From Ignavibacteriales bacterium (lineage in GTDB: Bacteria > Bacteroidota > Ignavibacteria > Ignavibacteriales > Melioribacteraceae), in NCBI GenBank assembly GCA_020061355.1, contig JAGUYK010000014.1:1-64000 (forward strand): a DNA stretch of 64,000 nucleotides, written 5' to 3'. The notes under the pieces are model-generated. The model ran no database searches, was not told the origin of the DNA, and was given only the letters and a program-made list of their open reading frames with translations. Below are positions 29,826-55,075 of this stretch, one piece after another. The stretch's first letter is position 1, and each line of letters starts with the position of its first letter. The position numbers and the translations under genes are program-made.

Positions 29826-30061
29826 ACAAAGTTCTTTTTGTTGCAAAGTTATGACAAATCATAGAATCATACAATAGTTTCTGGAATTATTTATTTGGAA
29901 TTTTCCACATCTTCAAATAAGAAAGCTCAATAGTATTGAAGTTGTAGCGGTTGAGAAAATGTGGGGAACCTAAATTTAGAATCTCAAAAACTAGATGTAA
30001 CCATAGAAACTGATTGGAAGAAAAAGTTCATAATCGAATTATCATGCGCTTTAATTTGTAA

Positions 30062-30079
30062 GCGGGGAATCAGGGATTC
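30062..30079 (+). repeat. tRNA-Ser 3'-end-like repeat (att-like), left copy
   Basis: GCGGGGAATCAGGGATTC matches the right-flank copy at 52546-52563 in 16 of 18 positions. Its complement reads as a tRNA-Ser 3' acceptor/T-arm end (…AATCCCTGA-TC-CCGC). Similarity to the right flank continues on both sides: before it a decayed terminator-like block, after it ATAAAATGCT-like and GTTGTGAC…ACCAA…TTATTT blocks. No complete tRNA is present. Likely a remnant of an integration junction. Confidence 0.6.
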
Positions 30080-30216
30080 TATACCATGTCTAAAATGCTC
30101 CGTTTTAACTCAAACACCCAACAATTCTATAAGTTGTGACTAAACTGTAACCAATTTATTTTCAGATGCATGAGACCATACTGGCTAAACTATTTTGGTT
30201 TCAGATGATGTTTTGA

Positions 30217-30442
30217 ATAGCGACAAGCATTCGCAGAGAATTTCTTGACCATGTTATCATAATAACTGAAAATCATTTGCGAAAACTTTAACAAATATTT
30301 TCATTATTACAATAATCAGCGGACTCAACTGGGACTAGACAAGGATTCACCATAATCGAGAGAGGTTCCTGTAATTGGAAAGATAGAGAAAGTTTCTGTT
30401 GCCAATGGTTTGCACAACTATTACTTCAGAAAAGCTGCATAA
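30217..30442 (+). pseudogene. decayed integrase-core (rve) transposase, 3' end
   Basis: Translating with one frameshift and stops gives IRREFLDHVIIITENHLRKL, then YFHYYNNQRTQLGLDKDSP, and a final NGLHNYYFRKAA before TAA. This is the conserved C-terminus of DDE integrase-core transposases of the type with IRRECLDHV and YYN-RTHLGL-KD-P. The upstream catalytic region is not recognisable. A second, separately decayed copy in the same orientation lies at 51903-52103. Confidence 0.75.
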
Positions 30443-30662
30443 TTAATTTCCACATATTTTATTTCAATCTAAGTCGTATTTGATCTACCAAAGCTCATAT
30501 CCTTTTTAACTAAAAAGGCAACCCGTCAAGAATTTTTTGACTAATTTATATTAGTACTTCTCGAAATCTATTATCCTTACAACTAACTGAAGCAATAATT
30601 ATCTGAATATTCAGTCTAAATTTGAAGCGGATTGGATTTTGAATATGGACAGAACAATTTTT

Positions 30663-31376
30663 TTATAATCCAATAACTTGAACGGCAAATCCGCAAAGAA
30701 ATACCAGAGCGCCCGCAAAAGCATGGGAGTACTTTTCGTATTTTTCTATTGATAGAAATTTGATCCCCTTTAAAGCCAGCATTACAATTATCAGCATTGT
30801 AAGAATTGTAGTTATTGCAAATGCACATGTAACAAGTATAAGTCCCCCAATTCCGATATTGACAGCAGGATACATTAAAATTGGAATTAAGGCTTCGCAC
30901 GGACCAAAAATAAATATGGTAAATAAAATCCATGGAGTCAGACTCGCAGTTTTTGTCTCTTCATGAACGTGGCAATGGTCTCCGTGGTGAGAATGATTAT
31001 GTTGATGCTTAATACTATCTGCATGGAAATGAAAATGAGTATGTTTTTTATTTTTGACAAAATAGCGTATTCCCCAGATAAAATAGATCAGTCCAAAACA
31101 CATTAATGCCCAACCGGCAATATTGCCCCGCGCTGATTCAATATCTTCAAGAACATGAAGAGCCAGACCGAATGTAATGCCAATCATTCCGATTACAATG
31201 GAGCTTAAGACATGACCGGCTCCGGCGATGATTGTAATAAAAATTGTTTTTGTCATCGACCAATTCCCCGCTTTGGACATAGCTATAAACGGCACATAAT
31301 GATCGGGTCCGAATATTGTGTGAAGAAAACCAAGTGATACTGCAGTTATAAAAAGTATTGAAAGTTCATTCGACAT
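30663..31376 (-). CDS. HupE/UreJ-like nickel permease with His-rich loop
   Basis: 237 residues, about six transmembrane helices. The first helix has HTIFGPDH, close to the HupE/UreJ signature HPxxGxDH, and a later helix has FGPCEALIP. Between them a cytoplasmic or periplasmic loop (about 107-145) is extremely rich in His (HTHFHFH, HQHNHSHHGDHCHVH) and should bind Ni2+. It is the last gene of the hydrogenase-maturation operon after hypE (54 bases), so it most likely imports or buffers nickel for the [NiFe] centre. The sequence also resembles the TauE/SafE and UreH families, an alternative label. Confidence 0.82.
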   Translation of the reverse strand: MSNELSILFITAVSLGFLHTIFGPDHYVPFIAMSKAGNWSMTKTIFITIIAGAGHVLSSIVIGMIGITFGLALHVLEDIESARGNIAGWALMCFGLIYFIWGIRYFVKNKKHTHFHFHADSIKHQHNHSHHGDHCHVHEETKTASLTPWILFTIFIFGPCEALIPILMYPAVNIGIGGLILVTCAFAITTILTMLIIVMLALKGIKFLSIEKYEKYSHAFAGALVFLCGFAVQVIGL

Positions 31377-31430
31377 TTAGTAACCTCAAGTATTTATCTC
31401 TAACCAAAGGTGAAATTCTACTCAGTCTAT

Positions 31431-32489
31431 TCAACATATCCTGGGAAGCTGTTCGCCGGAAATCATATCAATAATTCTTTTAGTACCGATAATTGTCTTC
31501 ATCAAAACTCTTACAGAATTCTGATCAGTAACTTCACCGATTATCTGAGCATCTCTTCCCATAGGATGATTTTTAATAACACCGAGAACTTTTTCTGATT
31601 CACTTCTGGGTAAGCAGATCAATAATTTACCCTCGTTTGCTATATATAGCGGATCGAAGCCAAGTATTTCGCAAGCTCCTTTAACCTCTTCGCTAATTGG
31701 AATGTTTAGTTCATCAATTACGATCTCTTTTTTTGCACTTTTTACAATTTCATTTAATGCGCTTGCAATACCGCCTCGTGTTGGATCTCTCATCACATGA
31801 ATATTTTTAGTAACCTTAAATACTTCCTCAACCAATCCATTAAGAGGGGCAGCATCACTTACAATTTTCGTTTCAAATTCGAGTGATTCGCGTGATGACA
31901 TTATTGCTATTCCGTGTTCGGCAATTTTCCCGCTCAATATTATTTTATCGCCGATCGCTAAGTTCTTCGGAGAGATATTTACTTCATCATATACCAGTCC
32001 AATTCCAGATGTATTAATAAAAATCTGGTCACCTTTCCCTTTCTCTACAACTTTAGTATCACCTGTTATTATTTTCACCCTGGCGAATTCAGCCGCTTCC
32101 CTCATTGAAGCAATTACTTTTTTGAAATCTTCAATTGGAAATCCTTCTTCAATAATAAACGCTACAGAGATGTAAAGTGGTTTCGCTCCGGCACAAACAA
32201 GATCATTTACCGTTCCATACACAGATAATTTTCCAATATCTCCTCCGGGAAAAAATATCGGCTTCACTACATATGAATCAGTCGTGAATGCAAATCTTTG
32301 TTTGTTGATTCCAAACACGGCACTATCATGCATTACATCAAGATATTCATTCGAAAACTGGGGCTGTATCAATTTCGTGATTAAATCATGAGATAATATC
32401 CCGCCTCCGCCATGAGCAATTAATATTTTTTCATATTCACCGGAAGAAATCGGACAATTCAACTTTGCAGAGAGATTGGTATCATTCAT
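31431..32489 (-). CDS. hypE: hydrogenase maturation protein HypE
   Basis: 352 residues, full length. The PurM-like ATP-binding core starts with LIAHGGGG, and MRDPTRGGIASALNE is present. The C-terminus is PRIC: the terminal Cys is the residue that receives carbamoyl from HypF and is dehydrated to thiocyanate, the source of the CN ligands of the active site. It follows hypD by 17 bases. Confidence 0.96.
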   Translation of the reverse strand: MNDTNLSAKLNCPISSGEYEKILIAHGGGGILSHDLITKLIQPQFSNEYLDVMHDSAVFGINKQRFAFTTDSYVVKPIFFPGGDIGKLSVYGTVNDLVCAGAKPLYISVAFIIEEGFPIEDFKKVIASMREAAEFARVKIITGDTKVVEKGKGDQIFINTSGIGLVYDEVNISPKNLAIGDKIILSGKIAEHGIAIMSSRESLEFETKIVSDAAPLNGLVEEVFKVTKNIHVMRDPTRGGIASALNEIVKSAKKEIVIDELNIPISEEVKGACEILGFDPLYIANEGKLLICLPRSESEKVLGVIKNHPMGRDAQIIGEVTDQNSVRVLMKTIIGTKRIIDMISGEQLPRIC

Positions 32490-32506
32490 ATTTTGTTAAT
32501 ATAATA

Positions 32507-33613
32507 TTATTGTCTATTGAAATTCGCCGTTTGCACTTTGTATTGATAATAAGCCGCACAAGCACCTTCTGAAGATACCATCGGAGCGCCGAGAGGATGT
32601 TCCGGATTACACTGATTTCCGAAAGCAGGGCAATCTATCGGTTTAGATATCCCCTGGAGTACTTCTCCCGAAATACACATGTTTGATTCAACAGTTGAAA
32701 TATTTTCCAAGAAGAAAATTCTTTCCGCGTCAAATTTAGAAAATGATTCGGATAATTCTAATCCGCTATTAGTTATTAACCCTATGCCGCGCCAATTTCT
32801 ATCAACAACATTAAATACATCGCGCATTATTTTTTGAGCATGTGTATTGCCTTCATTTGTAACTACCCGGCTGTATTGATTCTCCACTTCATGTTTATTT
32901 TGTTCTAGTTGAAGAACTGCATAGTAAATTCCTTTCATAATATCATAGGGCTCAAAGCCTGTTATTACGATTGGTACTTTATATCTATTTGAGATTTGAT
33001 AATATTCTTTCATTCCCATTACCGTGCAGACATGTCCGGCAGCGAGAACTCCATCGACCTTATTTTGAGGAGAAGAAAGCAACAACTCAATTGCAGGCGG
33101 AACCAAGACATGCGCACAAAGAATGGAATAGTTCTCTAATTCCTTCTGTTTTGCAAGCCGTACTGCCATTGCAGTTGCCGGGGCAGTCGTTTCAAATCCG
33201 ATTGCTAAGAAAACAATTTGTTTTACTGGATTTTGTTCGGCAATCTTAACTGAGTCAATCGGTGAATAGATTATTCGAACATCGCTTCCATTAGCTTTTA
33301 TACTAAGCAAATCATTTTTTGAGCCAGGCACACGAAGCATATCTCCGTATGAAGTAAAGATAACGTCTTTCCGAGAAGCTATTTCTATCGCTTTATCAAT
33401 AATCTGTAAAGGAGTTACACATACAGGACAACCGGGGCCATGAATCAAATTTACGTTGTGAGGCAGCAACGATTCGAGATTATATTTCATTATTGTATGT
33501 GTTTGCCCGCCACAGATTTCCATGATGTTCCAATTGTGAGTGGTAACTTCAAATATCTTTTGGGATATTATTTCGATTGTTGATGCATCACGGTATTCGT
33601 CGATGAATTTCAT
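32507..33613 (-). CDS. hypD: hydrogenase maturation protein HypD
   Basis: The ATG at 33613 (MKFIDEYRD) matches the usual HypD N-terminus; an upstream TTG is unlikely. 368 residues. It contains the conserved motifs [20 protein letters not shown] and the C-terminal Cys-rich [17 protein letters not shown] that binds the [4Fe-4S] cluster. With HypC it assembles the Fe(CN)2CO unit. The gap to hypC is about 110 bases, with no gene inside. Confidence 0.96.
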
Positions 33614-33722
33614 ATCATAAAATATCTGTTTGAACAATAATCATATTCTTAATCTTCATCATACTCTTATTCTAAATCTGATTTACCATAATGAAATTAA
33701 GAATTAGAACAAGGAATAAATA

Positions 33723-33944
33723 CTACACTTCATTTATTATTCTAAATGTTTCTTCCGCTTCCCTTGCATCAACCTTATTTAATGCGAATCCGACATGAAC
33801 TAATACATATTCTCCTACTTCTGGATTTTCAATCCATGCAAGACACACTTCTTTTATTATTCCTCCGAAACTAACCTTGGCCATTTTAATTCCATCCTTC
33901 TCGTCTTCAATAGAAATTATTTTCCCGGGAATAGCAAGGCACAT
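33723..33944 (-). CDS. hypC: hydrogenase maturation chaperone HypC
   Basis: Starting at ATG 33944 gives MCLAIPGK, the essential N-terminal Met-Cys of HypC; starting upstream would bury this Cys. 73 residues, normal length, with one conserved beta-barrel (VSFGGIIKEVCLAWI, VGEYVLVHVGFAL). It carries the Fe unit between HypD and the large-subunit precursor. AGG in the ribosome site overlaps the hypF stop; the gap is one base. Confidence 0.95.
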   Translation of the reverse strand: MCLAIPGKIISIEDEKDGIKMAKVSFGGIIKEVCLAWIENPEVGEYVLVHVGFALNKVDAREAEETFRIINEV

Positions 33945-33945
33945 T

Positions 33946-36315
33946 TTATACCTCAATAAATATTTTTTTCTCTTTGTATTGAACTATATCAAACGATTCA
34001 TATTCCAGATGACACGCTGCAATTTGTCCGAGTGATATTCCGCCATCATTAGTAGGAACTTTTTGATGAGTGTAAACCCTGAATCCTGATGAATTCAGCA
34101 AGTTAATCGTTCTACTTAAAAGAAAAATGTTTTGAAAACATCCACCACTCAACAGAACTTTTTCCTCTCCTATTAACTCACACAGATTTTGAATTACCCG
34201 CGCAAGCGTGTTATGATATTTGGCTGACATTTTTGAATTGTTTTCGCCTGCAGCAATATCTTCCATTATTCCTTCAATTATTGGCTGCCAATCGCAGATA
34301 AAAATGTTCTCCCCAAGAATTCTGAAACTATATTCGGCTGATTCATTCTTATCGGCAACAAATTCTAATTTCATTGCCGACTGACCTTCGTATTTCGAAA
34401 TTTGTGATATACCGAGCAAAGAGGAAACTGCATCAAATAATCTTCCTGCGCTTGATGTACGATGCGTGTTAAAGTCTTTTTCAAGCACCTGCTTAAGTAT
34501 AATTATTTCCTTTTCGTTAAATCTATTCCCGATTATCTCTTTCCATTTAGTAAATATTTCATCACCATACATTTCGTAAAGTATTCCTAAAAGAGCCCTT
34601 CTAGATTCCTTTGCAGATTTGTCCCCGCCTGGCAACGTGAAATTTCTAAATTGTCCTACATGCGAGAATTTATTATCATCAAGCAGGAAAAATTCGCTAC
34701 CCCAAATATTGCCGTCCAATCCATAACCTGTTCCATCCCAAGAAATTCCCAAAACTTTTCCAGCAACTTGATTTTCTGCTTTGCACGATGCAACATGGGC
34801 AAGATGATGCTGAACGGAAATTGTCTGCACATTCTGACCTAAAGCATATTTTGTCGAGAGATATTCAGGATGAGAATCATGAATAATTAATTCAGCTGTG
34901 CAGTCATAAATGCTTGAAAGATCTTTAACAGATTCGCTGAAAGAATCATATGCAGAGGAAGTTGATAGATCACCGATATGCTGACTGATAAAAATATTTT
35001 CATCTTTGTTAAGAGCAACGGTATTTTTAAAATGTCCGCCAACCGCAATTTTTACGATATCACTCTTTGATCTATCAGTACCGGATTTTATTTGTACGGG
35101 AAATGGTGCATAGCCCCGAGCTCTTCTTAAAACCATTTGTCTATCATTAAATATCCTCACAATAGAATCATCTACATGCCGGGCTATCGTGCGATTGTGA
35201 ACCAAAAAGTAATCTGCAATTGTACCTAACTTAATAAGTGCCTCTACCTCATTTATGCACATTGGCTCTTCTGCAATATTGCCGCTGGTTGCAACAATAG
35301 GAAAATTTAATTTTCTCATTATCAAATGATGTAACGGAGTATAAGGAAGCATAACGCCAAGGTATGGATTATCAGGTGCTATTGAATCACACAACAAAAT
35401 ATTGTCTATTTCAATCTTCTTTTTCAGCAAGACAATTGGTGATTCAGAAGAAAGAAGCAGACGCTTTTCAAGGATCGAAACTTCGACTAGTTCTTGTATC
35501 ATTGATATAGATGGGAACATTAAAGCAAATGGTTTTTCTTCACGCTGTTTTCTAAATCGCAATTTTCGAACAGCCTCATCATTTCGAGCGTCAACAAGAA
35601 GTTGATATCCGCCAAGTCCTTTTAATGTAACTATTTTTCCATCACGAATAAGTTCGCATGATTTAGAAATTGCTTTTTCTTTTTCATATATTTTTTCACC
35701 ATGGATATTCCACAATTCAACATGAGGGCCACAATTCTTACATGCGATTGGTTGTGCATGAAATCTTCTATCCGAAGGATTCATATATTCTTCATAGCAA
35801 TCTCCGCACATCACAAACTTTTTCATCGAAGTGTTATTTCTATCGTAAGGGAGTGATTCGATAATAGAAAAACGGGGACCGCAATTTATGCAATTAATAA
35901 ACGGGTAAAGATAACGGCGGTTGGTCGGATTGAACATTTCTTTTAGGCAATCATTACAGACAACTATATCAGGCATTATGAATGCTGTTTTTACAGAAGT
36001 ATTTTCACTTTCACGGATTTCAAAATTTTGATATCCTACAGCGTCAAGAAAATTAAACTCCATACCGCAGATTTGGGCTAAATCGGGTTTATCTTGTTCG
36101 ATCCTAATAATAAATTCATTTAGAATTTCTTTTGAACCTTCCGCTTCAATTAAAACTCCAAAACAGGAATTGCTGACATATCCAGTAAGGTGGAAACCAC
36201 TTGCCAGCTTATAAATGAATGGCCTAAATCCAACGCCCTGAACCGCGCCGCGAATGATTATTTTAATTCTAGAATTCAATGGGAACTTACTTTGTTTATT
36301 AACCAGCAGCACCAT
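33946..36315 (-). CDS. hypF: carbamoyltransferase HypF
   Basis: 789 residues, full length. Domains in order: acylphosphatase (about 18-105; RGAVQGVGFRPF), two Zn-finger pairs with CNDC and CINC, then CGDC and CKNC (about 118-190), a YrdC-like domain (about 205-395) and a Kae1-like domain (about 410-780; VQHHLAHVASC, ISWDGTGYG). It transfers carbamoyl from carbamoyl phosphate to HypE. The ATG overlaps hypB by 40 bases; a TTG overlapping the hypB stop (near 36279) is an alternative start and would lose 12 residues. Confidence 0.95.
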   Translation of the reverse strand: MVLLVNKQSKFPLNSRIKIIIRGAVQGVGFRPFIYKLASGFHLTGYVSNSCFGVLIEAEGSKEILNEFIIRIEQDKPDLAQICGMEFNFLDAVGYQNFEIRESENTSVKTAFIMPDIVVCNDCLKEMFNPTNRRYLYPFINCINCGPRFSIIESLPYDRNNTSMKKFVMCGDCYEEYMNPSDRRFHAQPIACKNCGPHVELWNIHGEKIYEKEKAISKSCELIRDGKIVTLKGLGGYQLLVDARNDEAVRKLRFRKQREEKPFALMFPSISMIQELVEVSILEKRLLLSSESPIVLLKKKIEIDNILLCDSIAPDNPYLGVMLPYTPLHHLIMRKLNFPIVATSGNIAEEPMCINEVEALIKLGTIADYFLVHNRTIARHVDDSIVRIFNDRQMVLRRARGYAPFPVQIKSGTDRSKSDIVKIAVGGHFKNTVALNKDENIFISQHIGDLSTSSAYDSFSESVKDLSSIYDCTAELIIHDSHPEYLSTKYALGQNVQTISVQHHLAHVASCKAENQVAGKVLGISWDGTGYGLDGNIWGSEFFLLDDNKFSHVGQFRNFTLPGGDKSAKESRRALLGILYEMYGDEIFTKWKEIIGNRFNEKEIIILKQVLEKDFNTHRTSSAGRLFDAVSSLLGISQISKYEGQSAMKLEFVADKNESAEYSFRILGENIFICDWQPIIEGIMEDIAAGENNSKMSAKYHNTLARVIQNLCELIGEEKVLLSGGCFQNIFLLSRTINLLNSSGFRVYTHQKVPTNDGGISLGQIAACHLEYESFDIVQYKEKKIFIEV

Positions 36316-36932
36316 TCTTCAATCCCTTCGCTAGTGGTGCATGATGTTTCAAATATGTGCAATTTAGGATTAATTTTTAGTGCGTTCGATTTTAAAGTAT
36401 CCAATCTGCAATTTGTGTAAGGAATCAAATCAATTTTATTGATAATCAGATAATCTGATTTCCTAAACATAGCAGGGTATTTGAGCGGTTTATCATCTCC
36501 TTCCGTTACACTGAGTATAACAACTTTTTCATTCTCTCCTAAATCATATGCAGCCGGGCAAACAAGATTACCTACATTCTCTATTATTAATAAATCGCTC
36601 CCGGTATTTTGAATCTTGTCAAAAGCATCTCTTACAAGGTTTGCTTCAAGATGGCACGCTCCGTTTGTTACAATCTGAATGACCGGAATATTTAATTTGC
36701 TTATTCTTTGTGCATCCAGATCGGTTTGTACATCACCTTCTATTACAGCAATTTTTACTTTTCCTGTCAGCATTTCAATTGTTTTTTCTATTATACTTGT
36801 TTTACCGGAGCCCGGTGAGCTGAGCATGTTAATCACAAATATTTTTTTATTTCGAAATATCTCCCTGTTCTGCTCGGCGACTTGATCATTCTTTTCAAGT
36901 ACTTTTCTTTCAATAGTTATAATGCTCATCAT
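36276..36932 (-). CDS. hypB: nickel-insertion GTPase HypB
   Basis: 218 residues. G1/P-loop SSPGSGKT at 38-45, EGDVQTD, and the G4-like NKIDLIPY. The metal-binding G-domain site is present (ACH in TNGACHLEA, Cys in NLVCPAA). The short N-terminus has neither a His-rich stretch nor the CxxCGC motif, so nickel storage may be done by the His-rich permease instead. It overlaps hypA by four bases. Confidence 0.95.
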   Translation of the reverse strand: MMSIITIERKVLEKNDQVAEQNREIFRNKKIFVINMLSSPGSGKTSIIEKTIEMLTGKVKIAVIEGDVQTDLDAQRISKLNIPVIQIVTNGACHLEANLVRDAFDKIQNTGSDLLIIENVGNLVCPAAYDLGENEKVVILSVTEGDDKPLKYPAMFRKSDYLIINKIDLIPYTNCRLDTLKSNALKINPKLHIFETSCTTSEGIEEWCCWLINKVSSH

Positions 36933-37282
36933 TCCTCCGGTTTATCATATAGCTCTATTTCAACAATTTGCATTTCATCTCCACCCGTTACTTCGATATC
37001 GATACTTCCACAATTTGGACAGACATTGTCAATCACATCGAGCAGAATTTCTTCCAAACAATTTTTACAGTTAATTATGATCGGAGCTCTCTCAATCACC
37101 AGCGTTGAATCATGCAATAAAGTATTTTTTACAGCTGCTTCATAACAATAGATCAATGAGTCAACTAGTATATTACTAAGTGTTCCAATTTTTAATTTAA
37201 TGATCTTTACACGACCCGAATTATCCGGCAAGTATTGGCTGGCAATGTTTATTATCTCATTTGCCACAGAAAGTTCATGCAT
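36929..37282 (-). CDS. hypA: nickel metallochaperone HypA
   Basis: 117 residues, normal length. Begins MHELS, with His2 as the nickel ligand. Zn-binding Cys pairs at 72/75 (CKNC) and 88/91 (CPNC). Works with HypB to insert Ni into the hydrogenase large subunit. Confidence 0.95.
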   Translation of the reverse strand: MHELSVANEIINIASQYLPDNSGRVKIIKLKIGTLSNILVDSLIYCYEAAVKNTLLHDSTLVIERAPIIINCKNCLEEILLDVIDNVCPNCGSIDIEVTGGDEMQIVEIELYDKPEE

Positions 37283-37365
37283 ACATTAATCTTAAGTTAA
37301 TATGTGATAATAGTGATTAATAATTATATCGCTCATTTTAATTTTCTTAAATATTATTACTCAAT

Positions 37366-38727: not shown

Positions 38728-38739
38728 AATATTAAGAGA

Positions 38740-39808: not shown

Positions 39809-39831
39809 TTATTCCTCCGCACTGCTAACGT

Positions 39832-41043: not shown

Positions 41044-41044
41044 T

Positions 41045-43851: not shown

Positions 43852-43870
43852 TTCTACCTCCGTCATTTTT

Positions 43871-43925: not shown

Positions 43926-43926
43926 T

Positions 43927-45741
43927 TTAAATCAGCGCTATAAAAACCAATAGACCGATAATTATATATAAAATGTATAGCTGTAACTGTCCTGGATGCC
44001 CTTTTTGCAATACTCTTGATAAGGCAAATGTTGATTTGGAACCCATCTCATAAATATCAAAGTATTTTTTCTCCGCCATATCATAAATGGTTTTTAGTGG
44101 TTTCATATTTCTTATTTCATTATAGAATTCCGTTCCTGCAACACGGAATTTTTCCAATGGTTCCGAACCGCCTAAATACACCTCATCATACCTAACCTTC
44201 TTTGTGAAAAGATAAATCCCCATTCCAACTATAAACCCGATTAGGAATAACATTACAATTAGCTGGGGAATATATAATCCGAGAAATTCTGGAACGATTA
44301 TTCCGTTACTTTCAATGGCCGGAAAAATAATTTTTGACAAAGGGAATCTCAGTGCAAAAATTCCAAATCCAATACAAAGAAGTGAAAGCGCAGAAGTTGC
44401 AAGCCACTGATTGATAGGAGCTTCTTTGACATCGTCATAAATTTTTGGACGCCGGCCAAGATAAATAGCATGTAAAAATTTCATGAAGCTCGCCAGAGTC
44501 AATGCGCTTCCAAAAACTGCAAGGATTATACATACTAATAACCATAACTGATAGACCGGCTGCAGCAGCGCTGCCTTTTCAATTAGTCCTTGATAAATCA
44601 TCCATTTAGAGAAAAAACCATTAAAGGGAGGTATTCCAGAAATTGATAACGCACCTATCAATGCCATCACAAAGGTGATTGGCATTTTTTTGCCAAGTCC
44701 ACCTAGGTTATCGAGTTCAGCAGTTTTCGTTTGTTTTTCAACAGAACCAAGAGTTAAAAACAAATCCGATTTATAAATAGTATGATTTACAAGATGGAAT
44801 AACCCTCCGGCGAAAGCGAGAGCACTTCCGCTTCCTATACCCATTATCATATATCCAACCTGACTAACCGCATGATACCCGAGCAATTTTTTACCATTGT
44901 GCTGATTCATCGCCATCATTACAGCAGTAATAACTGTAAGAGTACCGAGAGAAATTATTATCATGTTAACAAGAAGTCCGATCTCAAATAAAATAGTTAC
45001 CATTAAAGTTAAAAGATAAATTCCCAACAATTTATCGAGAGAAGCCGGCAGAAATGCTGCACTTTCAATCGGTGCATCTAAGGCAAAATCGGGAACCCAT
45101 GTATGAAATGGAAATCCGCCCGCTTTAGCGAACGCAGCTATCAATAAAAACGTCAGGGCGATTATTGAAGCAGGATTGTCCAATGCTGTCTTCAATTCAA
45201 AAATCGACCAAGAAGTAGTTCCCTTTAATAACCAGATAATTACAAATCCCATTATCAATAGAGCATCGCTGCCGCCGATAATTATAAATGTTTTTTTTGC
45301 TGTCTTCGGCGCTTCTTTTGTTTTACCAAGCAATCCAAATAAATACAGTGTAAGTCCTGACAATCCCCAAAAAATTAAAAAGCTGAATACATGATTGCTG
45401 AGTACTACTCCGTTGCAAAATGCTACCGTCAGCGGGTAAAGGATGAAAAACATTTTTTCGATTGAACTTTCAACTCCTTTTAATGAGAAAAATAATATTA
45501 TAAAACTGAGAAGCTGGATGAAGATGAGTGAGAAAAATCCCATCTGTGAAAAGGAAAGAATAAGTGTATCGAAAAATGCGAAGGGGGCGTTATCACCTAG
45601 ATAAACAAGGTAAATCAAATAAAAGTTAATGCATAAGCTTACAACTGCAGATAGCTTAGCTATAACTCGCGGCAGTATTATATTAATGATTCCTGCCGCA
45701 AGAGGAATGAAGATCAGTAACAACAAATTATTATAAACCAT
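43927..45741 (-). CDS. NuoL-like proton antiporter subunit of group 4 hydrogenase
   Basis: 604 residues with about 14-16 transmembrane helices. Core features: FAKAGGFPFHTWVPDFALDA, KKLLGYHAVSQVGY, LVNHTIYKSDLF and SISGIPPFNGFFSKW. After the core, a ~60-residue amphipathic stretch (about 540-585) and a last helix (LYILYIIIGLLVFIAL) look like the lateral helix and terminal anchor of NuoL. This would cover the role of the small MbhI protein in Pyrococcus, which has no separate gene here. Follows the large-subunit gene with an 11-base overlap. Confidence 0.9.
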   Translation of the reverse strand: MVYNNLLLLIFIPLAAGIINIILPRVIAKLSAVVSLCINFYLIYLVYLGDNAPFAFFDTLILSFSQMGFFSLIFIQLLSFIILFFSLKGVESSIEKMFFILYPLTVAFCNGVVLSNHVFSFLIFWGLSGLTLYLFGLLGKTKEAPKTAKKTFIIIGGSDALLIMGFVIIWLLKGTTSWSIFELKTALDNPASIIALTFLLIAAFAKAGGFPFHTWVPDFALDAPIESAAFLPASLDKLLGIYLLTLMVTILFEIGLLVNMIIISLGTLTVITAVMMAMNQHNGKKLLGYHAVSQVGYMIMGIGSGSALAFAGGLFHLVNHTIYKSDLFLTLGSVEKQTKTAELDNLGGLGKKMPITFVMALIGALSISGIPPFNGFFSKWMIYQGLIEKAALLQPVYQLWLLVCIILAVFGSALTLASFMKFLHAIYLGRRPKIYDDVKEAPINQWLATSALSLLCIGFGIFALRFPLSKIIFPAIESNGIIVPEFLGLYIPQLIVMLFLIGFIVGMGIYLFTKKVRYDEVYLGGSEPLEKFRVAGTEFYNEIRNMKPLKTIYDMAEKKYFDIYEMGSKSTFALSRVLQKGHPGQLQLYILYIIIGLLVFIALI

Positions 45742-46918
45742 TAATTTGCCTCCTGAAGCTTTCTGTTTTTTCTCTCGAAATTTTTAGCAAGTCATATTTT
45801 AAAGGATCATGATTTATATCGATAAATTTCAGCGATCTCTCTGTACAACAATAACATGGATCAACTGCAGCAAGAGTTATCAATGCATCTGCTATGGGTA
45901 TTCCTTTGCATGATGCTTGAAATGTGGGAATGTTAACATAACTTGGGGCGCGGACCTTATGCCTGATTGGTCTGTTTGTGCCGTCAGTTCGGACATAATG
46001 AAATACTTCCCCTCTAGGGGCTTCGTATCTTCCAATGCCTTCGCCGGGTTTAATTTCTTTAATATCATTTAATATTGGACTATTGTTCTCTGCAAGTTTA
46101 TCCAAACATTGTTTAACAATTTTGATAGATTCAAAAGTCTCGAGTACTCTCAATACAAGTTTGTCGTAAACGTCCCCGTTCTGAAGAACAATCACTTTGA
46201 AATCAACCATTCCATATGCGTCTTTTGGATCGGTCTTTCGAACATCGGCTGGTATGCCTGATGCGCGGGATGTTGGACCAACTGCACAGAAATCAATTGC
46301 AGCTTGTTTGGTTAATACACCCACACCCTTTAATCTTGATTTCAAAACAGGATCGTCGTTAACTGCCTTGGCAATCATCTCAAGTTTGGTTTGAATCATA
46401 TCCAGATTTTTTGCGAGTTCTGAAATCTTTGCCGGTTCAACATCTTTGGATACTCCTCCAACTCTCATCATACCGTAATGGTTTCTATTGCCCGAAATAA
46501 CTTCAAACATTTCGAGAACCGGCTCGCGGTATTTCCAAGCCCACATCCAAACAGTATCGTACCCAATGAAATGTCCAGCTAATCCAAGCCAAAGTAAATG
46601 ACTATGAATTCTTTCAAGTTCCCCGATCAATGTTCTTATATAAGCGGCTCTTTCCGGAATTTCAATATTATCAACATCTTCAATAGCATGAACGAGAGCA
46701 AGAGGGTGCGAAGTGGAACAGATTCCGCAAATACGTTCAACAAGAAAAATTGATTGTGTGAAAGTCTTTTGCTCGGATATAAATTCGTGTCCGCGGTGCA
46801 TCCAGCCAATATCGAGTTCGATGTCGACAACAGTTTCACCATCGACTGTAAGTGTAAAATACTCGGCTTCTTCAAGCAGTGGATGAAATGGCCCGACCGG
46901 TATAACATTTTTATTCAT
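45731..46918 (-). CDS. group 4 [NiFe]-hydrogenase large (catalytic) subunit, NuoD-like
   Basis: 395 residues. The N-terminal active-site motif ERICGICSTSH has Cys64, Cys67 and His71; the C-terminal motif DPCYCCTER has Cys355 and Cys358. All four Ni ligands are present, so this is a true hydrogenase and not a complex I or Mbs subunit. An extra Cys357 lies directly beside a ligand. 34 residues follow the last motif and may be removed by the protease at 38740. Overlaps the NuoC-like gene by eight bases. It is the MbhL/EchE/HycE-type subunit. Confidence 0.94.
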   Translation of the reverse strand: MNKNVIPVGPFHPLLEEAEYFTLTVDGETVVDIELDIGWMHRGHEFISEQKTFTQSIFLVERICGICSTSHPLALVHAIEDVDNIEIPERAAYIRTLIGELERIHSHLLWLGLAGHFIGYDTVWMWAWKYREPVLEMFEVISGNRNHYGMMRVGGVSKDVEPAKISELAKNLDMIQTKLEMIAKAVNDDPVLKSRLKGVGVLTKQAAIDFCAVGPTSRASGIPADVRKTDPKDAYGMVDFKVIVLQNGDVYDKLVLRVLETFESIKIVKQCLDKLAENNSPILNDIKEIKPGEGIGRYEAPRGEVFHYVRTDGTNRPIRHKVRAPSYVNIPTFQASCKGIPIADALITLAAVDPCYCCTERSLKFIDINHDPLKYDLLKISREKTESFRRQINGL

Positions 46919-47354
46919 GCTCTACTCTCTTGAATCTGAATTGATTTTTTCGCTCTGCTCCTTTTGGGTGATCGCCAATCATTAACGGTTCGAGACGGGG
47001 ATGCCCAATGAAATTAACTCCCCAGAAATCGTGAATTTCTCTCTCAATCCATTCTGCACCAATTACCAGCTGTGTAATTGAATTCATTGTTGGATTATTT
47101 TTATCCGGCATTATAACACGAGGACAAAAGTATTGTCCCGATTCATCATGTGAGAAATGATAAAGAACTTCAACATGATGATATGTTTCCATTCCGGTGG
47201 CAGTCGATAGCCGGCAGCCTAAATCGTTAATCAGATGATTTACAACTTCGAGAAAGTCTTCATTCTTCACATTGAAATAGAGACGTTCATGCTTGTCAAT
47301 TATTTTTTCGATTTTACTTTCAAACTTTTGGAGAAATTTTTCTTTTTTATCCAT
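46911..47354 (-). CDS. NuoC-like subunit (MbhK-type)
   Basis: 147 residues, with the conserved GAEWIEREIHDFWGVNFIGHP and a C-terminal RFKRVE. A NuoC/30-kDa-like component that holds the large subunit. Overlaps the small-subunit gene by eight bases. Confidence 0.92.
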   Translation of the reverse strand: MDKKEKFLQKFESKIEKIIDKHERLYFNVKNEDFLEVVNHLINDLGCRLSTATGMETYHHVEVLYHFSHDESGQYFCPRVIMPDKNNPTMNSITQLVIGAEWIEREIHDFWGVNFIGHPRLEPLMIGDHPKGAERKNQFRFKRVEHE

Positions 47355-47766
47355 TGAGTACTCCTATAAGTTTTGCTACTCCTTCTATCATGGCTTCTGG
47401 CTTTGGCGGGCAGCCGGGGATATACATATCAATTGGAATAACATCTTCTCTTTTCTCAACAATATTATAGCTGTCGTTGAAACAACACCCGCCTGAAGGA
47501 CAAGTTCCAACTCCAACAACAAAACATGGTTTTGCAGCTTGTTCATAAATCTTTTTTACTCTGGGTGCAACTTTTTGATTTATTACTCCCGAAAGCAGAA
47601 TTACATCAGCATGTCTAACCGAACCAACGAGTTTAATTCCTAATCTTTCAATATCATATTTCGGAGTGAGTAAATCGAGTATTTCGATATCGCAGTTGTT
47701 ACATGGAGATGCGCTCATGTGAAATACCCAAATTGATTTTGCCAGTCTCTTGTTGTACCAGCCCAT
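47347..47766 (-). CDS. group 4 [NiFe]-hydrogenase small subunit, NuoB-like (MbhJ-type)
   Basis: 139 residues. The proximal [4Fe-4S] ligands are present: Cys22 and Cys25 (CNNC), Cys89 (GTCPSGG) and Cys119 (GCPPKPE). Short, without a signal peptide, as in Ech/Mbh enzymes. GAGGT precedes the ATG. Confidence 0.94.
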   Translation of the reverse strand: MGWYNKRLAKSIWVFHMSASPCNNCDIEILDLLTPKYDIERLGIKLVGSVRHADVILLSGVINQKVAPRVKKIYEQAAKPCFVVGVGTCPSGGCCFNDSYNIVEKREDVIPIDMYIPGCPPKPEAMIEGVAKLIGVLNG

Positions 47767-47786
47767 TTATTAACCTCATCTTTTAT

Positions 47787-47840
47787 TTGCCACAAAGTCA
47801 CCAGGACACGAAATAATAAAACTTTGTAACTTCGCGCCTT
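47787..47840. repeat. TTGTGGCAAA-type dispersed intergenic repeat, copy 2
   Basis: Between the NuoB- and NuoH-like genes. Plus strand begins TTTGCCACAAAGTCACCAGG and contains ACACGAA and ACTTTGTAACTTCGCGCC. It shares TTTGCCACAAA with copy 1 at 43871-43925 and lies in the only sizable gap (86 bases) of the structural operon. Confidence 0.45.
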
Positions 47841-47853
47841 ATTGGCTATTTTA

Positions 47854-48783
47854 TTAATATCCAAACACAGCAAGAATAATTGCAATAAATGCTAAAGGTG
47901 TTGCTATTTTCCAGAAAAAATGAAGTGCTGTGTCAATTCTAATTCTTGGATTAGTATTTTTTATAATTATCATCAAAACAACTATTGATAGATATTTAAG
48001 TACGGCCCAGAGAATTCCGATTCCAATTAATTCGAACCCTCCCCAAAAGAGAAGAATGAGTAAAAACGGAAAAGCCACGTACATCATTAGTTGATTTAAT
48101 TTCCAGAAAGCCAGAGGCGGACCACTATATTCCATTAGCGGACCTTCAACCAATTCTGTCTCTGCTTCGGGGATACTAAACGGTGTTAAAGCCATCTTTG
48201 CCTGGATGCATAATATCCCGATAATAAATGCAATTAATCCGGAGAAGGAGCCAATGAAAGCACCATTTGTAACTTGAGCCATTAAGATGGAATCGAGCTT
48301 AATTTGATAACCGGATTTGATTATAGGGACCAGGCATATTAAAATGAACGCAAGCTCATCCGCAAGAAGTAATTTGATCTCCCTGCCTGCACCTACACTC
48401 GAATAAACATTTCCAGTTGATGCGCCTCCAAGGATTATCATCACTGAATAAATCATCAGCAAATACATCACTACTATTATATCGGCGCCCAAATCATATT
48501 GATAAAAAAGTGCCGTTCCGATAATTGCAGAGATTAAAACCATTACTCCGAATGCAATAAATGGTGCAACAATAAAAAGTGAATGAACTCCTTCTTTAAC
48601 AATGATCGTTTCTTTTCCGAGCAGTTTGAAAAAATCATTAAAATTTTGAAACAGCGGCGGACCTACCCGGTAAGTAAATCTGGCCGTAACTTTTCTATCA
48701 ACCCAGCCAATCAATAAACCAAGAACAGATGTAAATAATAATCCCGGGAAAACGAGTAAGTAAAAAACGAATTCCGGTTTCAT
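47854..48783 (-). CDS. NuoH-like membrane subunit (MbhM/EchB-type)
   Basis: The ATG at 48783 with GGAGG seven bases upstream gives 309 residues; it overlaps the preceding stop by four bases. Eight or so helices with GWVDRKVTARFTYRVGPPLF and the loop IPEAETELVEGPLMEYSG, the conserved charged motifs of NuoH. Anchors the hydrogenase and links it with the ion pump. Confidence 0.93.
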   Translation of the reverse strand: MKPEFVFYLLVFPGLLFTSVLGLLIGWVDRKVTARFTYRVGPPLFQNFNDFFKLLGKETIIVKEGVHSLFIVAPFIAFGVMVLISAIIGTALFYQYDLGADIIVVMYLLMIYSVMIILGGASTGNVYSSVGAGREIKLLLADELAFILICLVPIIKSGYQIKLDSILMAQVTNGAFIGSFSGLIAFIIGILCIQAKMALTPFSIPEAETELVEGPLMEYSGPPLAFWKLNQLMMYVAFPFLLILLFWGGFELIGIGILWAVLKYLSIVVLMIIIKNTNPRIRIDTALHFFWKIATPLAFIAIILAVFGY

Positions 48784-49289
48784 ACTCGTTCCTCCTTCAT
48801 TCTCCAACTCGGACTTTTCACAGCGACATTTTCACCGCAGAAATAAACATGATTCTTTTTATCTTCATTGACCATAGCTACAATTTTCAAAGTGTTTGGC
48901 GGTGCGGTTTTTACACAGAGCGGCTGGAAGTCCGGGTCAGCTTCAAACTGATTAATACAGAAATCGCAATTGGCAGAAATATAATTTATTACTTCGGGGA
49001 AAATTGTTCCGAATGGACAAGCAAGAACGCAGCTTTTGCAGCCGACACAACGCATGTTCCATCTTTTAATTACACCAGATTCCAGATGTTCGAGCGCATC
49101 TTTGGGACATGCTGCAACACAAAAAGCATCTTTACATTGTCTGCAGTAGGATGCAAACTCTGCAATTTCAAGTAATGAAAAAGCACCATGATTCTTTCGA
49201 TGATATATATATTCACATTCAATTTCTTCAGCTGAAATACCGGAATCAATAAGTGCAGGAATATCAATCAATAATTTTTTTAATCCCAT
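48780..49289 (-). CDS. polyferredoxin, HycB/CooF-like 4Fe-4S protein
   Basis: 169 residues with several Cys groups: CRQCKDAFCVAAC, CVGCKSCVLAC, CDFC and a later C in PLCVK. This arrangement matches HycB/HydN/CooF electron-transfer proteins. It lies between the flavoprotein gamma gene (10-base overlap) and the NuoH-like gene, so it may carry electrons from the flavin module to the hydrogenase. Confidence 0.88.
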   Translation of the reverse strand: MGLKKLLIDIPALIDSGISAEEIECEYIYHRKNHGAFSLLEIAEFASYCRQCKDAFCVAACPKDALEHLESGVIKRWNMRCVGCKSCVLACPFGTIFPEVINYISANCDFCINQFEADPDFQPLCVKTAPPNTLKIVAMVNEDKKNHVYFCGENVAVKSPSWRMKEERV

Positions 49290-50134
49290 ATCTCCTCCTC
49301 ATCCTTAATTTGGTTGTAGGTAAATACAGGTCCGTCTTTGCAAGCGAAGTAGGGACCAATAACACAATGCCGGCATTGCCCAAATCCACAATACATTTTC
49401 TTTTCCATGGAGAGATAGAGGTTTTCTTCTTTATAACCGTATTTAAGCAAATCAAGAGTTCCGAATTTCATCATAATGGGAGGACCACAGACAACAGCCG
49501 GATTGTTTTCTGGATCAATATTTAGCTGTTTGAGAAGAACCGTAACAACTCCAACATCTTCATTCCATTCTTCTCCTTCGGGAACAACATCAACAGAACG
49601 TATGAATTTAACTTTAGGATATTTTCGCCATCCGGTAACTTCATCTTTATAGATGCAATCCTTCGGAGTTTTAGCTCCAGCATAGAAAGTTATGCTATTA
49701 TACTTTTCCACTTCATGAAGTAAGGTTAAAAACAATGAGCGTAAAGGAGCCAATCCGCATCCGCCGCCTAGAATTAATAAATCCTTACCTTCAAATTTTT
49801 CTAATGGGTAATGTGAACCATACGGACCCCGCAAGCCGACAATATCCCCAATTTTTACCTTATGCACATACTCGGTAACAAAACCGGTTTTCATAACCGT
49901 CACATCGAGAGTCTCGTCGATAAAATGCGAAGAGGAAGGAGTAAAAGGTCCTTCACCTATTCCGGGAATTGTAAGTTCAATAAACTGCCCGGTTTTAAAT
50001 GGAAATTTTCGTTCAGGCTTTAGTCGAAGAGTTTTTATTAGCGGCGATTCCTGAATTACCTCGTAAACTTCGGCGGGAACTACCTCATAAGGATTAACAA
50101 TCGGTTCGGCAACTTCTTGATTAAATTGATTCAT
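49280..50134 (-). CDS. sulfhydrogenase-type gamma subunit (FAD/NAD(P)-binding oxidoreductase)
   Basis: 284 residues. An FAD-binding beta-barrel (about 15-105; TPSSSHF and GPYGSHYPL), an NAD(P)-binding Rossmann half (about 110-225; ILGGGCGLAPLRSL, VVCGPPIMM), and a C-terminal [2Fe-2S] motif CGFGQCRHCVIGPYFAC. It belongs to the HydG/AsrB family of sulfhydrogenase gamma and anaerobic sulfite reductase B subunits. It would exchange electrons between NAD(P)H and the FeS chain. Confidence 0.9.
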   Translation of the reverse strand: MNQFNQEVAEPIVNPYEVVPAEVYEVIQESPLIKTLRLKPERKFPFKTGQFIELTIPGIGEGPFTPSSSHFIDETLDVTVMKTGFVTEYVHKVKIGDIVGLRGPYGSHYPLEKFEGKDLLILGGGCGLAPLRSLFLTLLHEVEKYNSITFYAGAKTPKDCIYKDEVTGWRKYPKVKFIRSVDVVPEGEEWNEDVGVVTVLLKQLNIDPENNPAVVCGPPIMMKFGTLDLLKYGYKEENLYLSMEKKMYCGFGQCRHCVIGPYFACKDGPVFTYNQIKDEEEIWD

Positions 50135-50181
50135 CCGGTGATATCCTTTTTTAATATTGTTTCAAAATCTTTATTGTTGAA

Positions 50182-51219
50182 TCACTGCGCAACTTCAGAA
50201 AAATTTTCAGCAGTATTTTTCACAACTTTCATAAAACTAATTTTACCGGGACACGCTTCAGTGCAACGTCCGCATCCAGTGCAACCATATAAACCGAAGT
50301 TACTTTTCATATATAGATACTTACAGAGATAACGATTTCGGAACCGTTCAAACATTTTTGGCCGCGGCGTACCTCCACCGGCTACCCGCGCATAACCATT
50401 CCATTGACATGAGTCATAACTTCTTACTTTCATAAATTCTTGTGCTTCTGTTTCATCATTCAAGATAAGGCAATAACAGGTAGGACAAATATTGGTACAT
50501 GCACCGCATCCGACACATGAAGTTGATTCATCCTTCCATAATTCCAGATCACTCAATTTTAGATTTATAAAATCCCTCTTCGCACGTAATGATAAATTAC
50601 GTTCTTCGAGGGATGCGAATATTTTTTCACGCTTTTTTTGAATCTCAGAGGTGTCCACATCTTTGCAAGTCTCAAACCCTATATGGGAACTCATAGTAAC
50701 GAGAAATTTTTCACCTCCGGGACTTCCAGCTTGAAGAAAATAATTATCATAAATAGAGCTGATATTAATGTCAAAACCTTTACCGGGATAAGGTTTACCA
50801 TCCATTAGGTTGCATGAACAATTCTCTCCTATCTCACCACAGTCGCTGCTGATGATTAAAGTATTTTCCCTCCAATGTTTGTAGCCTGGGTCGATAAAAT
50901 TTTTATTTATCAAAGCAATGTCAGTTAGTTCAAGGGCTTTCAAATCGCATTGTTTAACACCAACAATAATTCTTTTAGTGTTTCTAGTTTTTTCTGAATT
51001 CATTGATTCACGAACCAAATAGAAGAGTATTTTAATTGGGTCGACTGTTCGAAAAGAATCAAGAACAATTTCGTTGTCTTCTGATATTCTGTGAAAATAA
51101 GTATGCCCGTTCGTGGAATATTTTGGTTTTGCGGGAACAATTACTTCAGAGAATCCATCAATCTTTTCTTTATCAACTTTTTTAAGAAAGGAAATAAAAT
51201 CATTAGCTTTTACTATCAT
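50182..51219 (-). CDS. sulfhydrogenase-type beta subunit, 4Fe-4S protein (HydB/AsrA-like)
   Basis: GGAG seven bases before the ATG at 51219 sets the start, giving 345 residues. Two C-terminal ferredoxin sites, CVGCGACTNICPTC and CTGCGRCTEACP, plus a Cys group in the middle (DCGEIGENCSC). It matches the beta subunit of archaeal sulfhydrogenases and AsrA. Being first in the hydrogenase operon with the gamma gene next (47 bases), the pair forms a NAD(P)-linked module, here joined to a group 4 hydrogenase rather than to the usual group 3b alpha/delta subunits. Confidence 0.88.
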   Translation of the reverse strand: MIVKANDFISFLKKVDKEKIDGFSEVIVPAKPKYSTNGHTYFHRISEDNEIVLDSFRTVDPIKILFYLVRESMNSEKTRNTKRIIVGVKQCDLKALELTDIALINKNFIDPGYKHWRENTLIISSDCGEIGENCSCNLMDGKPYPGKGFDINISSIYDNYFLQAGSPGGEKFLVTMSSHIGFETCKDVDTSEIQKKREKIFASLEERNLSLRAKRDFINLKLSDLELWKDESTSCVGCGACTNICPTCYCLILNDETEAQEFMKVRSYDSCQWNGYARVAGGGTPRPKMFERFRNRYLCKYLYMKSNFGLYGCTGCGRCTEACPGKISFMKVVKNTAENFSEVAQ

Positions 51220-51902
51220 TAAAGTTCTCCGATAATTTATAAATACTCGGATTAAATCATCATTCAATCAGAATAACAACTATATGAACAGTAAACGGCC
51301 AAGAATATTTTTGTGCAATTAGCGAAGAATGAGTAAAAATTTAATATTTATTTTTTTGCTACATTCTTATGAGAGGCCTGTTAATAATAGTATACCTAAA
51401 ATCTCTTCCATACAAGGCCTTGCGGAAAATGCAAGATTGTTGAACAATTCGAATGAGGTCTATAGTGAATTGAGATATAAGAGTTGATAGAATAAAGAGA
51501 AGGGGAACTAAGTATATTACATAACAGGTCGTTTCGAGGTGAAGAATTCTTTCAGGTAGTGCCATAAAATGAAAATCAGAATATGTAATAATTTATTATA
51601 ATTAAAACTATGTCCAATTTCGAAAGAATTTTGATCACAACAATAACAGCAATTGCAACTTAATTTATTCCGAGAATAATATCAACTTTTTTTATATGGA
51701 AGCGTACCCGATTGTGATGGCTCTTTTAAAATGTAAGTAATTAAAACTCCATAGAAATGTCATAGATAGATGTCGCTAGTTACATCATCATCAACCATCA
51801 AGTCTATAATTTTGAAATAATAACACCTTTTTGCACTTCGTGATAAGGAGTATTGATCATAGATTTTTATGACCAAAATATAACCAACAATCTGTCGTGT
51901 TT

Positions 51903-52103
51903 GAAAACCATGTGATTATTATTAATAAAAAGCATTTGCGATAACTTCTAAAAGAATATTTTCATTACTATTATAATCAACGAACACATCTCGGGTTGAA
52001 TAAAGACTCGCCTGAGTCTCGTCCGGTGCAGATAATTTGCAAAATAGAAAAATTGGGTGTAGCGAACGGACTTCATAATTACTATTACCGGCAAGCTGCT
52101 TAA
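51903..52103 (+). pseudogene. decayed integrase-core (rve) transposase, 3' end, second copy
   Basis: In one frame with a single internal TAA (51942) it reads ENHVIIINKKHLR, LLKEYFHYYYNQRTHLGL, NKDSPESRPV and NGLHNYYYRQAA before a natural TAA. Clearly homologous to the remnant at 30217-30442, in the same orientation but with independent decay. The 5' part is not recognisable. Confidence 0.8.
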
Positions 52104-52339
52104 ATTATCCTTTCAGATTTCCTTCCAACCAAGTCTTAACTGACGGATACATTTCTATATCAATTTTCTGTAAAATCACTTCTGTTATGTAAATTCTAGA
52201 ATAAAATTCTCTCTTTGCGACCTAAGTTTTTGGTTCACAACCATCAGTATCATTTCAAAATTCAGATTAATCACTTAATTTTCACTTCGGATTGAGTTTT
52301 GACTAATGACAGGTGTCATTCAGGAGAACAGAAGTTAAG

Positions 52340-52373: not shown

Positions 52374-52382
52374 ATTTTAAGG

Positions 52383-52399
52383 GCGGAGAGTCAGGGATT
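52383..52399 (+). repeat. tRNA-Ser 3'-end-like repeat (att-like), right copy 1
   Basis: GCGGAGAGTCAGGGATT; identical over 17 bases to copy 2 at 52546. The complement reads AATCCCTGACTCTCCGC, the usual 3' end of tRNA-Ser genes. Only the 3' end is present. Confidence 0.65.
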
Positions 52400-52475
52400 A
52401 ATTTTATTGATCCCTAGAGGGAGAGGTTAAAACAAATGATGCCCGTGCCGCTGCGCGGCACTCCTTTTATTCATA

Positions 52476-52500
52476 GCGATTGTAAACAAGTTTACATCGC
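52476..52500. repeat. inverted repeat hairpin in the 163-bp unit between tRNA-like repeats
   Basis: GCGATTGTAAAC and GTTTACATCGC pair (one bulge) around a 2-base loop. A second small GC hairpin (GTGCCGCTGCGCGGCAC) lies just before it at 52445-52461. Possibly ends of a mini-element. Confidence 0.4.
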
Positions 52501-52508
52501 CATAAAAC

Positions 52509-52532
52509 AAAAAACCCCGAATTACTTCGGGG
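52509..52532 (-). terminator. Rho-independent terminator beside tRNA-like repeat 2
   Basis: On the minus strand CCCCGAA-GTAA-TTCGGGG is followed by TTTTTTG. It is 13 bases after the tRNA-Ser-3'-like repeat and about 200 bases downstream of the uronate operon, so it can end transcription from that operon too. Confidence 0.75.
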
Positions 52533-52545
52533 CATTATTTGTTTT

Positions 52546-52563
52546 GCGGAGAGTCAGGGATTC
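52546..52563 (+). repeat. tRNA-Ser 3'-end-like repeat (att-like), right copy 2
   Basis: GCGGAGAGTCAGGGATTC. The sequence that follows (TATAAAATGCTTCG…GTTGTGACCAAAAAGTGACC…TTATTTACAGACG) aligns with that after the left copy at 30062, although about 22.5 kb away. GTGACCAAAAAGTGACC is a short direct repeat such as often precedes tyrosine integrase genes. Confidence 0.65.
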
Positions 52564-52730
52564 TGTGACACCTATAAAATGCTTCGAATTTAGCTTGTAA
52601 TCGCAGCTTTTCAAAATGTTGTGACCAAAAAGTGACCAAATTATTTACAGACGTATAAGATTAAACCGGTAAAACTATAATGGTTTCACATATTGTTTTA
52701 ACCAACAACAAGCTATTGATTACCCGGTGG

Positions 52731-55046: not shown

Positions 55047-55075
55047 TTAAGACTTTCCCTGCAAAGAATTGGAAA

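Follow-up and report, generated by a model that had tools for sequence, protein, structure and literature searches.

A hydrogenase gene set in a probable tandem array of genomic islands at a tRNA-Ser(TGA) gene of an Ignavibacteriales bacterium

The 64,000-nucleotide stretch analyzed here (the window, positions 1 to 64,000 of contig JAGUYK010000014.1, called C28 below, of a member of the Melioribacteraceae) carries a set of hydrogenase and maturation genes flanked by short direct repeats and by pieces of a gene with an integrase-core (rve) domain that belong to an insertion sequence (IS), termed IS A. The repeats correspond to the 3' end of a tRNA-Ser gene, and the window appears to cut through a tandem genomic-island array built at tRNA-Ser(TGA), 82705-82792, a reading to which a probability of about 0.8 is assigned. 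The features of the locus are the following.

30062..30225, plus strand: left border, consisting of the tRNA-Ser(TGA) 3'-end repeat (30062-30079, antisense) and an island-end arm
30133-30152: arm motif of the left border, GTTGTGACTAAACTGTAACC
30199-30225: look-alike of an IS terminus that closes the left arm (up to 8 of 27 mismatches allowed)
30226..30651, plus strand: left remnant of IS A, with the last ~75 transposase codons (to 30442), the 3' flank and the right terminus TTTTGAATATGGACA ending at 30651
30663..51267, minus strand: cargo, comprising a membrane [NiFe] hydrogenase (NuoD/Mrp type), HypA, HypB, HypD, HypE, HypF, a histidine kinase and sulfhydrogenase-like electron-transfer subunits
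51822..52311, plus strand: second remnant of IS A, with transposase residues 259-340 (to 52103) and the right terminus at 52311
52383..52399, plus strand: tRNA-Ser 3'-end repeat, an older junction; homology to the congener G015 starts exactly here
52400..52545, plus strand: former downstream flank of tRNA-Ser with terminator CCCCGAATTACTTCGGGG, found directly before the tRNA in G015
52546..52713, plus strand: tRNA-Ser 3'-end repeat and island-end arm, the distal end of the next segment
52618-52637: arm motif of the right-hand arm, GTTGTGACCAAAAAGTGACC
52731..63655, minus strand: in-window part of the neighbouring segment, with heparinase II/III-like protein, acetylesterase, major facilitator superfamily transporter, alginate lyase, dehydrogenase and sugar kinase

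Repeats, target tRNA and junctions

The left repeat, GCGGGGAATCAGGGATTC, is read directly from the sequence at 30062-30079, and the right-hand repeats, GCGGAGAGTCAGGGATT, start at 52383 and at 52546. All are co-oriented, and the copies at 30062 and 52546 match at 16 of 18 positions, just as an initial annotation of this DNA had described them. Its claim that similarity extends past the repeats is likewise borne out: alignment onward from the repeat pairs 30062-30228 with 52546-52713 at 119 of 168 columns (71%, E 7e-18), and only 1 of 200 random 168-bp pieces had a second match on the contig as good or better. A degenerate 17-mer gave four forward, no reverse and no control matches in the genome (3,687,816 bases in 47 contigs), all on one strand of C28, at 30062, 52383, 52546 and 82705; with four copies in 3.69 Mb, all on one contig, the objection that such repeats might be scattered over the genome fails. 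When up to two mismatches were allowed, these four remained the only sites in the 132 kb of C28 examined, which include 68 kb beyond the window, and 30 first-order resamplings contained none. A looser 18-mer reaching into the tRNA, with 3 mismatches, had 1 control match and 7 forward matches in the whole genome, two of the latter being other tRNA-Ser genes (GGA, GCT).

The identification of the repeat as a tRNA-Ser 3' end was confirmed by the genome search, since the fourth copy, at 82705, belongs to an intact tRNA-Ser(TGA) gene on the minus strand, whose 3' end it forms, and no tRNA gene was found within the 64-kb window itself. The locus thus has tRNA 3'-end direct repeats of which one is the intact tRNA, as expected of an island. 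Leftward from the tRNA follow the segment 82704-52546, a 163-bp piece (52545-52383) and the stretch 52382-30062 with the hydrogenase genes. The target tRNA lies 30 kb past the right border, so that the tandem array at tRNA-Ser(TGA) has two or more segments and the hydrogenase genes occupy the distal one. The layout initially proposed, in which two att sites and two rve pieces enclose the cargo, therefore stands as to its att-like borders and island-like order, and has to be given up as a picture of one simple island; for annotation, the borders of the array move to 30 kb and 82.7 kb, with the tRNA outside the window. The tRNA at 82705 is now followed by a different terminator, CCTCGAAAACAGCATTCATTTGCTATAATCGAGG, which is the same or almost the same beside tRNA-Ser repeats in G029 and G030, two members of the family comparison set (80 genomes, own included).

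A comparison was made with G015, whose tRNA-Ser (contig C281, L140, 10943-11030) is directly preceded by a stretch that is 84% identical (152 of 182 columns) to 52383-52563, opens with base 1 of the 52383 repeat and contains both right-hand repeats, at a spacing of 164 bp vs 163 bp in the window. To the left of this shared flank the two genomes differ: in G015 come five other genes, one of which we take to resemble a beta-glucosidase, in the window the IS remnant and the hydrogenase genes. Because the flank is joined straight to the tRNA in G015, 52546-82704 was either inserted in the lineage of the window or exactly lost in G015, which thus supplies an empty site for this segment and a counterpart for the 52383 junction. 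The repeat at 52383 is an older junction common to the window and G015, and it is distinct from the likewise old junction at 52546. On a short contig of another congener, G016, the repeat appears twice at a distance of 125 bp, and 61 bases there match window 52504-52564 at 80%. The displaced flank also holds a GC-rich palindrome, GTGCCGCTGCGCGGCAC (window 52445-52461), absent from G015 at the same place and perhaps a small repeat element.

The whole segment 52546-82704 further holds a TonB-dependent receptor and a GntR regulator, its proteins having been scanned except at 63.7-72.1 kb and, in the window, except for the open reading frame 57926-58288. On the other side of the tRNA, C28 84.7-105.7 kb is perhaps another variable region: in the congener G014 a contig that spans the interval from the amylase gene to a tRNA-Asp has no DNA match to it (E 1e-4).

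The hydrogenase genes and the IS A remnants

The hydrogenase and maturation genes said to lie between the flanks are real. HypE, HypD and HypF, and only these, pass their NCBIfam cut-offs; the Nuo/Mrp-like, kinase and sulfhydrogenase-like proteins match below cut-off, and HypA and HypB (36276-37282) are names that we assume from their sequence. The large subunit keeps both RICGICSTSHP and DPCYCCTER, which we take to be the two CxxC motifs of the [NiFe] hydrogenase large subunit, and these motifs together with the Hyp genes mark a membrane Mrp/complex-I-like [NiFe] hydrogenase. Of 136 relatives, 80 were listed and 39 of these, all named loci, were mapped for gene order; among those mapped, many in Ignavibacteriota, KSB1 and Neomarinimicrobiota share the order from HydB to the histidine kinase, so that the hydrogenase set is a stable module. 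Among the 80 family genomes, 17 have HypD; in the two congeners that have it the identity is 62% and 59%, which is not closer than in other genera (up to 64%).

The trees were built from 42 rows (first tree of the large subunit, LSU), 33 rows (second LSU tree) and 29 rows (four-gene set). A one-gene LSU tree pairs the window with a KSB1 metagenome-assembled genome (MAG; 97/87). Approximately unbiased (AU) tests on the second LSU tree rejected neither a grouping with Ignavibacteriota (p 0.124) nor one with two Melioribacter-like rows (p 0.169); the four-gene set rejected the KSB1 pairing (p-AU 0.029) and did not reject a grouping with the congener G015 (p-AU 0.344), whose hydrogenase genes group 100/100 with a MAG titled Melioribacter sp. 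A KSB1 source of the hydrogenase was accordingly withdrawn. Since the AU tests leave vertical groupings standing, they do not demonstrate transfer from another phylum, and a foreign origin of the hydrogenase draws no support either from G+C, which is flat, or from the trees, in which descent within its own group is not rejected.

The integrase-core pieces are located at both flanks, as claimed: tblastn with an intact homologue finds rve at 30217-30442 (two frames) and at 51822-52103, and 30248-30442 and 51907-52103 are 68.5% identical over 197 columns. The intact relative is a protein of 340 residues within an IS of ~1.3 kb that passes Pfam rve_3 PF13683 (53 bits, cut-off 26.5) and does not reach the NCBIfam cut-offs for IS3 and IS481 (98.4 of 160 and 96.1 of 224 bits). 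The ends of IS A are imperfect 27-bp inverted repeats, TGTsCmTATTCAAAAT... and ...TTTTGAATAkGGACA (terminus matches were accepted with up to 8 of 27 mismatches), and such repeats enclose one DDE gene at G028:C4:136713-138040, in two copies on G029:C4 and in one on G021:C124. The interval from the transposase stop to the tRNA repeat is 277, 287, 289 and 289 bp in G028, G030, G029 and G043, respectively, and 280 bp in the window. At five places (G043 twice, G030, G029 twice) the right end of IS A abuts a GTCTAnnCAGAC-like site before a terminator, all five junctions sharing GGACA at the IS end and (C/A)G(T/A)CTAnnCAGAC beyond it; the other copies, including those of G021 and the window, do not abut such a site. 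In G030, the tRNA-Ser array and the immediate vicinity of its outermost repeat account for 5 of 6 rve matches. The left arm of the window ends in an IS-terminus look-alike and adjoins the transposase gene near codon 265, and the left rve piece is a nested remnant. The pieces are transposase debris, as initially described; they derive from a separate IS with 27-bp inverted repeats, one that frequently sits in such arms, and probably not from the recombinase that used the tRNA repeats.

Formation of the array and alternative explanations

Tyrosine-integrase islands at tRNA genes leave a direct repeat of the tRNA 3' end, restore the tRNA and displace the old flank. For the array considered here, a site-specific recombinase, by analogy with the relatives a tyrosine integrase, would join an incoming circle to the tRNA 3' end, each integration leaving the tRNA whole, duplicating its last ~17 bases at the distal end of the insert and displacing the former flank outward. 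The segment 52546-82704 is one such insert, as the comparison with G015 shows, and 30062-52383 would be an older, decayed segment holding the hydrogenase genes because its ends match, with repeat and arm on the left and IS remnant, terminator and repeat on the right. The integrase would have been lost since integration, and IS A would be a parasite of the array. The restored tRNA and the displaced flank, shown against G015, are like those of tyrosine-integrase islands, and unlike these no integrase was found on C28. That the hydrogenase genes came with the 30062/52383 event is suggested by the layout and the G015 junction and seems, on balance, the probable course; the right junction of their segment is shown, and the left is a putative one read from its sequence. 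Acquisition, as initially proposed, is supported by position, i.e. by the end of G015 homology exactly at the 52383 repeat and the patchy occurrence of HypD, and is not supported by G+C and gene trees.

A number of observations weigh against the array as outlined. For the left border no relative gave an empty site, which the initial annotation had suggested seeking, and none was found in which 29.8 kb is joined to sequence on the side of the tRNA. Besides the own genome, 6 of the 79 others in the family have the gene at 29.2-29.8 kb, one of them as a weak match (7 of 80 in all), and none of four congeners (66-98% complete) has it; it and tRNA-Ser are on separate contigs in five of the six and 72 kb apart, on the 5' side, in G061, and none of the 7 of 80 genomes with the gene was found to have it at the 3' side of the tRNA. 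The hydrogenase segment has no host-unlike composition, with a G+C of 36.5% against 36.7% and 36.9% outside and 38.5% in the next segment, and G015 has a hydrogenase cluster of 67% DNA identity on another contig. Phage_integrase (PF00589) has no match on C28 and 8 elsewhere in the genome, and a search of the 132 kb of C28 with six island integrases and four partner proteins gave a best E of 0.87; an integrase gene inside a segment is found in tRNA-Ser islands of relatives and not in the contig of the window. Among those integrase islands no distal repeat was recognised in G061 (69 kb), where a single match of 15 bases, three of them mismatched, was attributed to chance, or in G031 (28 kb to the contig end).

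Flat G+C, the cluster in G015 and trees that do not reject descent within Ignavibacteriota (p-AU 0.344 with the congener's copy) would all agree with the hydrogenase genes being an old resident set on both sides of which islands landed, giving a mere likeness of a bracket. This is unlikely in view of the exact end of G015 homology at the 52383 repeat, the arrangement around the cargo of an arm on the left and IS, terminator and repeat on the right, which is the order of one island, and the restriction of HypD to 17 of 80 family genomes. The IS A remnants, which stand in the same orientation at both ends of the cargo, the left terminus ending 12 bp from the first gene, might also be taken for a composite transposon in which two direct copies of IS A carried the hydrogenase genes and the tRNA repeats merely mark its landing place. 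An identity of 68.5% between the remnants hardly fits one composite event, the right remnant keeps the IS-to-repeat spacing of the relatives and so belongs to an island end, and no target duplication was evident by eye, no program search having been made for one; such an origin is judged quite improbable.

The DDE enzyme encoded by rve was at first read as the islands' own integrase, doing the job usual for tyrosine integrases at tRNA genes, and the array stretches at tRNA-Ser(TGA) in G028, G029 and G043 do contain rve, at 277-289 bp from a repeat, with no match to Phage_integrase. The reading was set back by rve copies that are bounded by 27-bp terminal inverted repeats of their own, at a distance of ~1.3 kb, and also occur away from tRNA repeats, by the tyrosine integrases in tRNA-Ser islands of relatives, one with a window-type arm at its far end, and by a fragment of the integrase's partner gene that G043 retains beside the tRNA; it is extremely improbable. 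Nearly as improbable is the more general proposition that some tRNA-Ser islands of the family owe their movement not to a tyrosine integrase but to the rve (DDE) recombinase, encoded at a constant 277-289 bp from the repeat, which, if true, would mean that a transposase-fold enzyme performs precise tRNA-directed island integration. A milder and better supported reading than rve-driven integration is that IS A homes to island arms and that the tyrosine integrase acts together with a partner that descends from an IS1595 transposase and lacks a conserved acidic triad.

Related tRNA-Ser islands and known systems

A DNA search with 52540-52720 matched 18 of the 80 family genomes, and the arm itself is present in 12 of 80 (own included, and G022 counted on a 32-base match); the 6 left out match in the repeat only (positions 1-25), one of them, G068, also past the arm. 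Of 30 tRNA-Ser(TGA) loci submitted, 29 were mapped, G022:C132 being left out since it has no full tRNA. Tyrosine integrases occur at 5 of the 29 (G030, G031, G061, G027 and G066), a lower bound because several loci have little or no 3'-side DNA. The integrases of G030, G031 and G061 form one group (44-49% mutual identity) and those of G027 and G066 another (67% identical), the latter two adjoining partial tRNA copies of 56 and 71 bases. In G030, 63 kb lie between the tRNA (2010438) and the next repeat (G030:C3:2073722), with an intact tyrosine integrase on the tRNA side and, at the far end, an arm 74% identical to that of the window over 104 bases; look-alike arm repeats were seen by eye before the tRNA in G030, G031 and G061, e.g. 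GTGACTAAAAAGTGTCC in G061. In 15 of the 29 loci the alpha-amylase gene begins no more than 600 bp away on the opposite side of the tRNA, and the 3' side varies. Viral contigs searched with the integrase alignment gave 1 weak relative (26%) only, and plasmids searched with one partner protein gave none.

The nearest described case, as far as the available part of the account goes, is that of the tandem ssrA islands of Dehalococcoides, in which segments with respiratory-enzyme cargo are bounded by 20-bp copies of an RNA-gene 3' end and some segments without an integration module are discussed as accreted or fixed (PMC3146451). The present array is like these in its repeated RNA-gene 3' ends and its several segments, some without integration module. 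It differs in that the target there is the transfer-messenger RNA gene and a serine recombinase (DsiB) belongs to a six-gene module, whereas the target here is tRNA-Ser and the relatives have a tyrosine integrase with an IS1595-like partner. In Hydrogenovibrio SP-41 hydrogenase and maturation genes lie in a strain-specific region under island prediction; organism and cargo context differ, and the available part of that account describes no array of tRNA 3'-end repeats (PMC6501319). For Melioribacter roseus, only [FeFe] hydrogenases are mentioned in the available part of PMC3534657. Tandem tRNA islands are ordinary in kind, and a literature search of titles and abstract openings found no description of a tRNA-Ser island array in this lineage. 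The locus offers a worked case in which the flank of a congener proves one insertion and an Ignavibacteriota-like lineage gathers gene modules at one tRNA-Ser, a warning that an island may have flat G+C and lack an integrase, and a lead for integrase research in the pairing, beside tRNA-Ser genes, of a tyrosine integrase and a partner of IS1595 origin.

This partner is a protein of ~240-256 residues with weak IS1595-type matches (zinc ribbon, and a DDE domain below cut-off) and, in a four-member alignment, no invariant acidic residues past position 56. It adjoins tRNA-Ser genes (TGA, GGA, GCT) at L322, L323 and L324 (G031, G030, G061), L321 (G029), L326 (G034) and L333 (G018), the matches in G034 and G018 being partial. 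Matches occur in 16 of 395 genomes of the phylum, and all 6 in the family of the window are beside tRNA-Ser, 5 of the 6 with a tyrosine integrase of one group (with intervening genes in G029 and G030). On G043:C5 a fragment of it (L124 17571-17963, residues 111-222, 41%) lies near tRNA-Ser in an array in which otherwise just the rve IS is seen; a tyrosine-integrase module may have been lost there. Another integrase group, near 180278 on G066:C19 and at G000:C8:98189 (L049 818-862), 66% identical to each other, adjoins a 45-46-base copy of the tRNA-Ser 5' half, which would fit island entry at the anticodon side of tRNA-Ser as well. A 5.5-kb repeat-bounded segment on G043:C5 (L124 12054-14481) has as cargo primase-like and helicase-like proteins beside a Fic-like gene, a combination that, we presume, resembles TOTE conflict systems.

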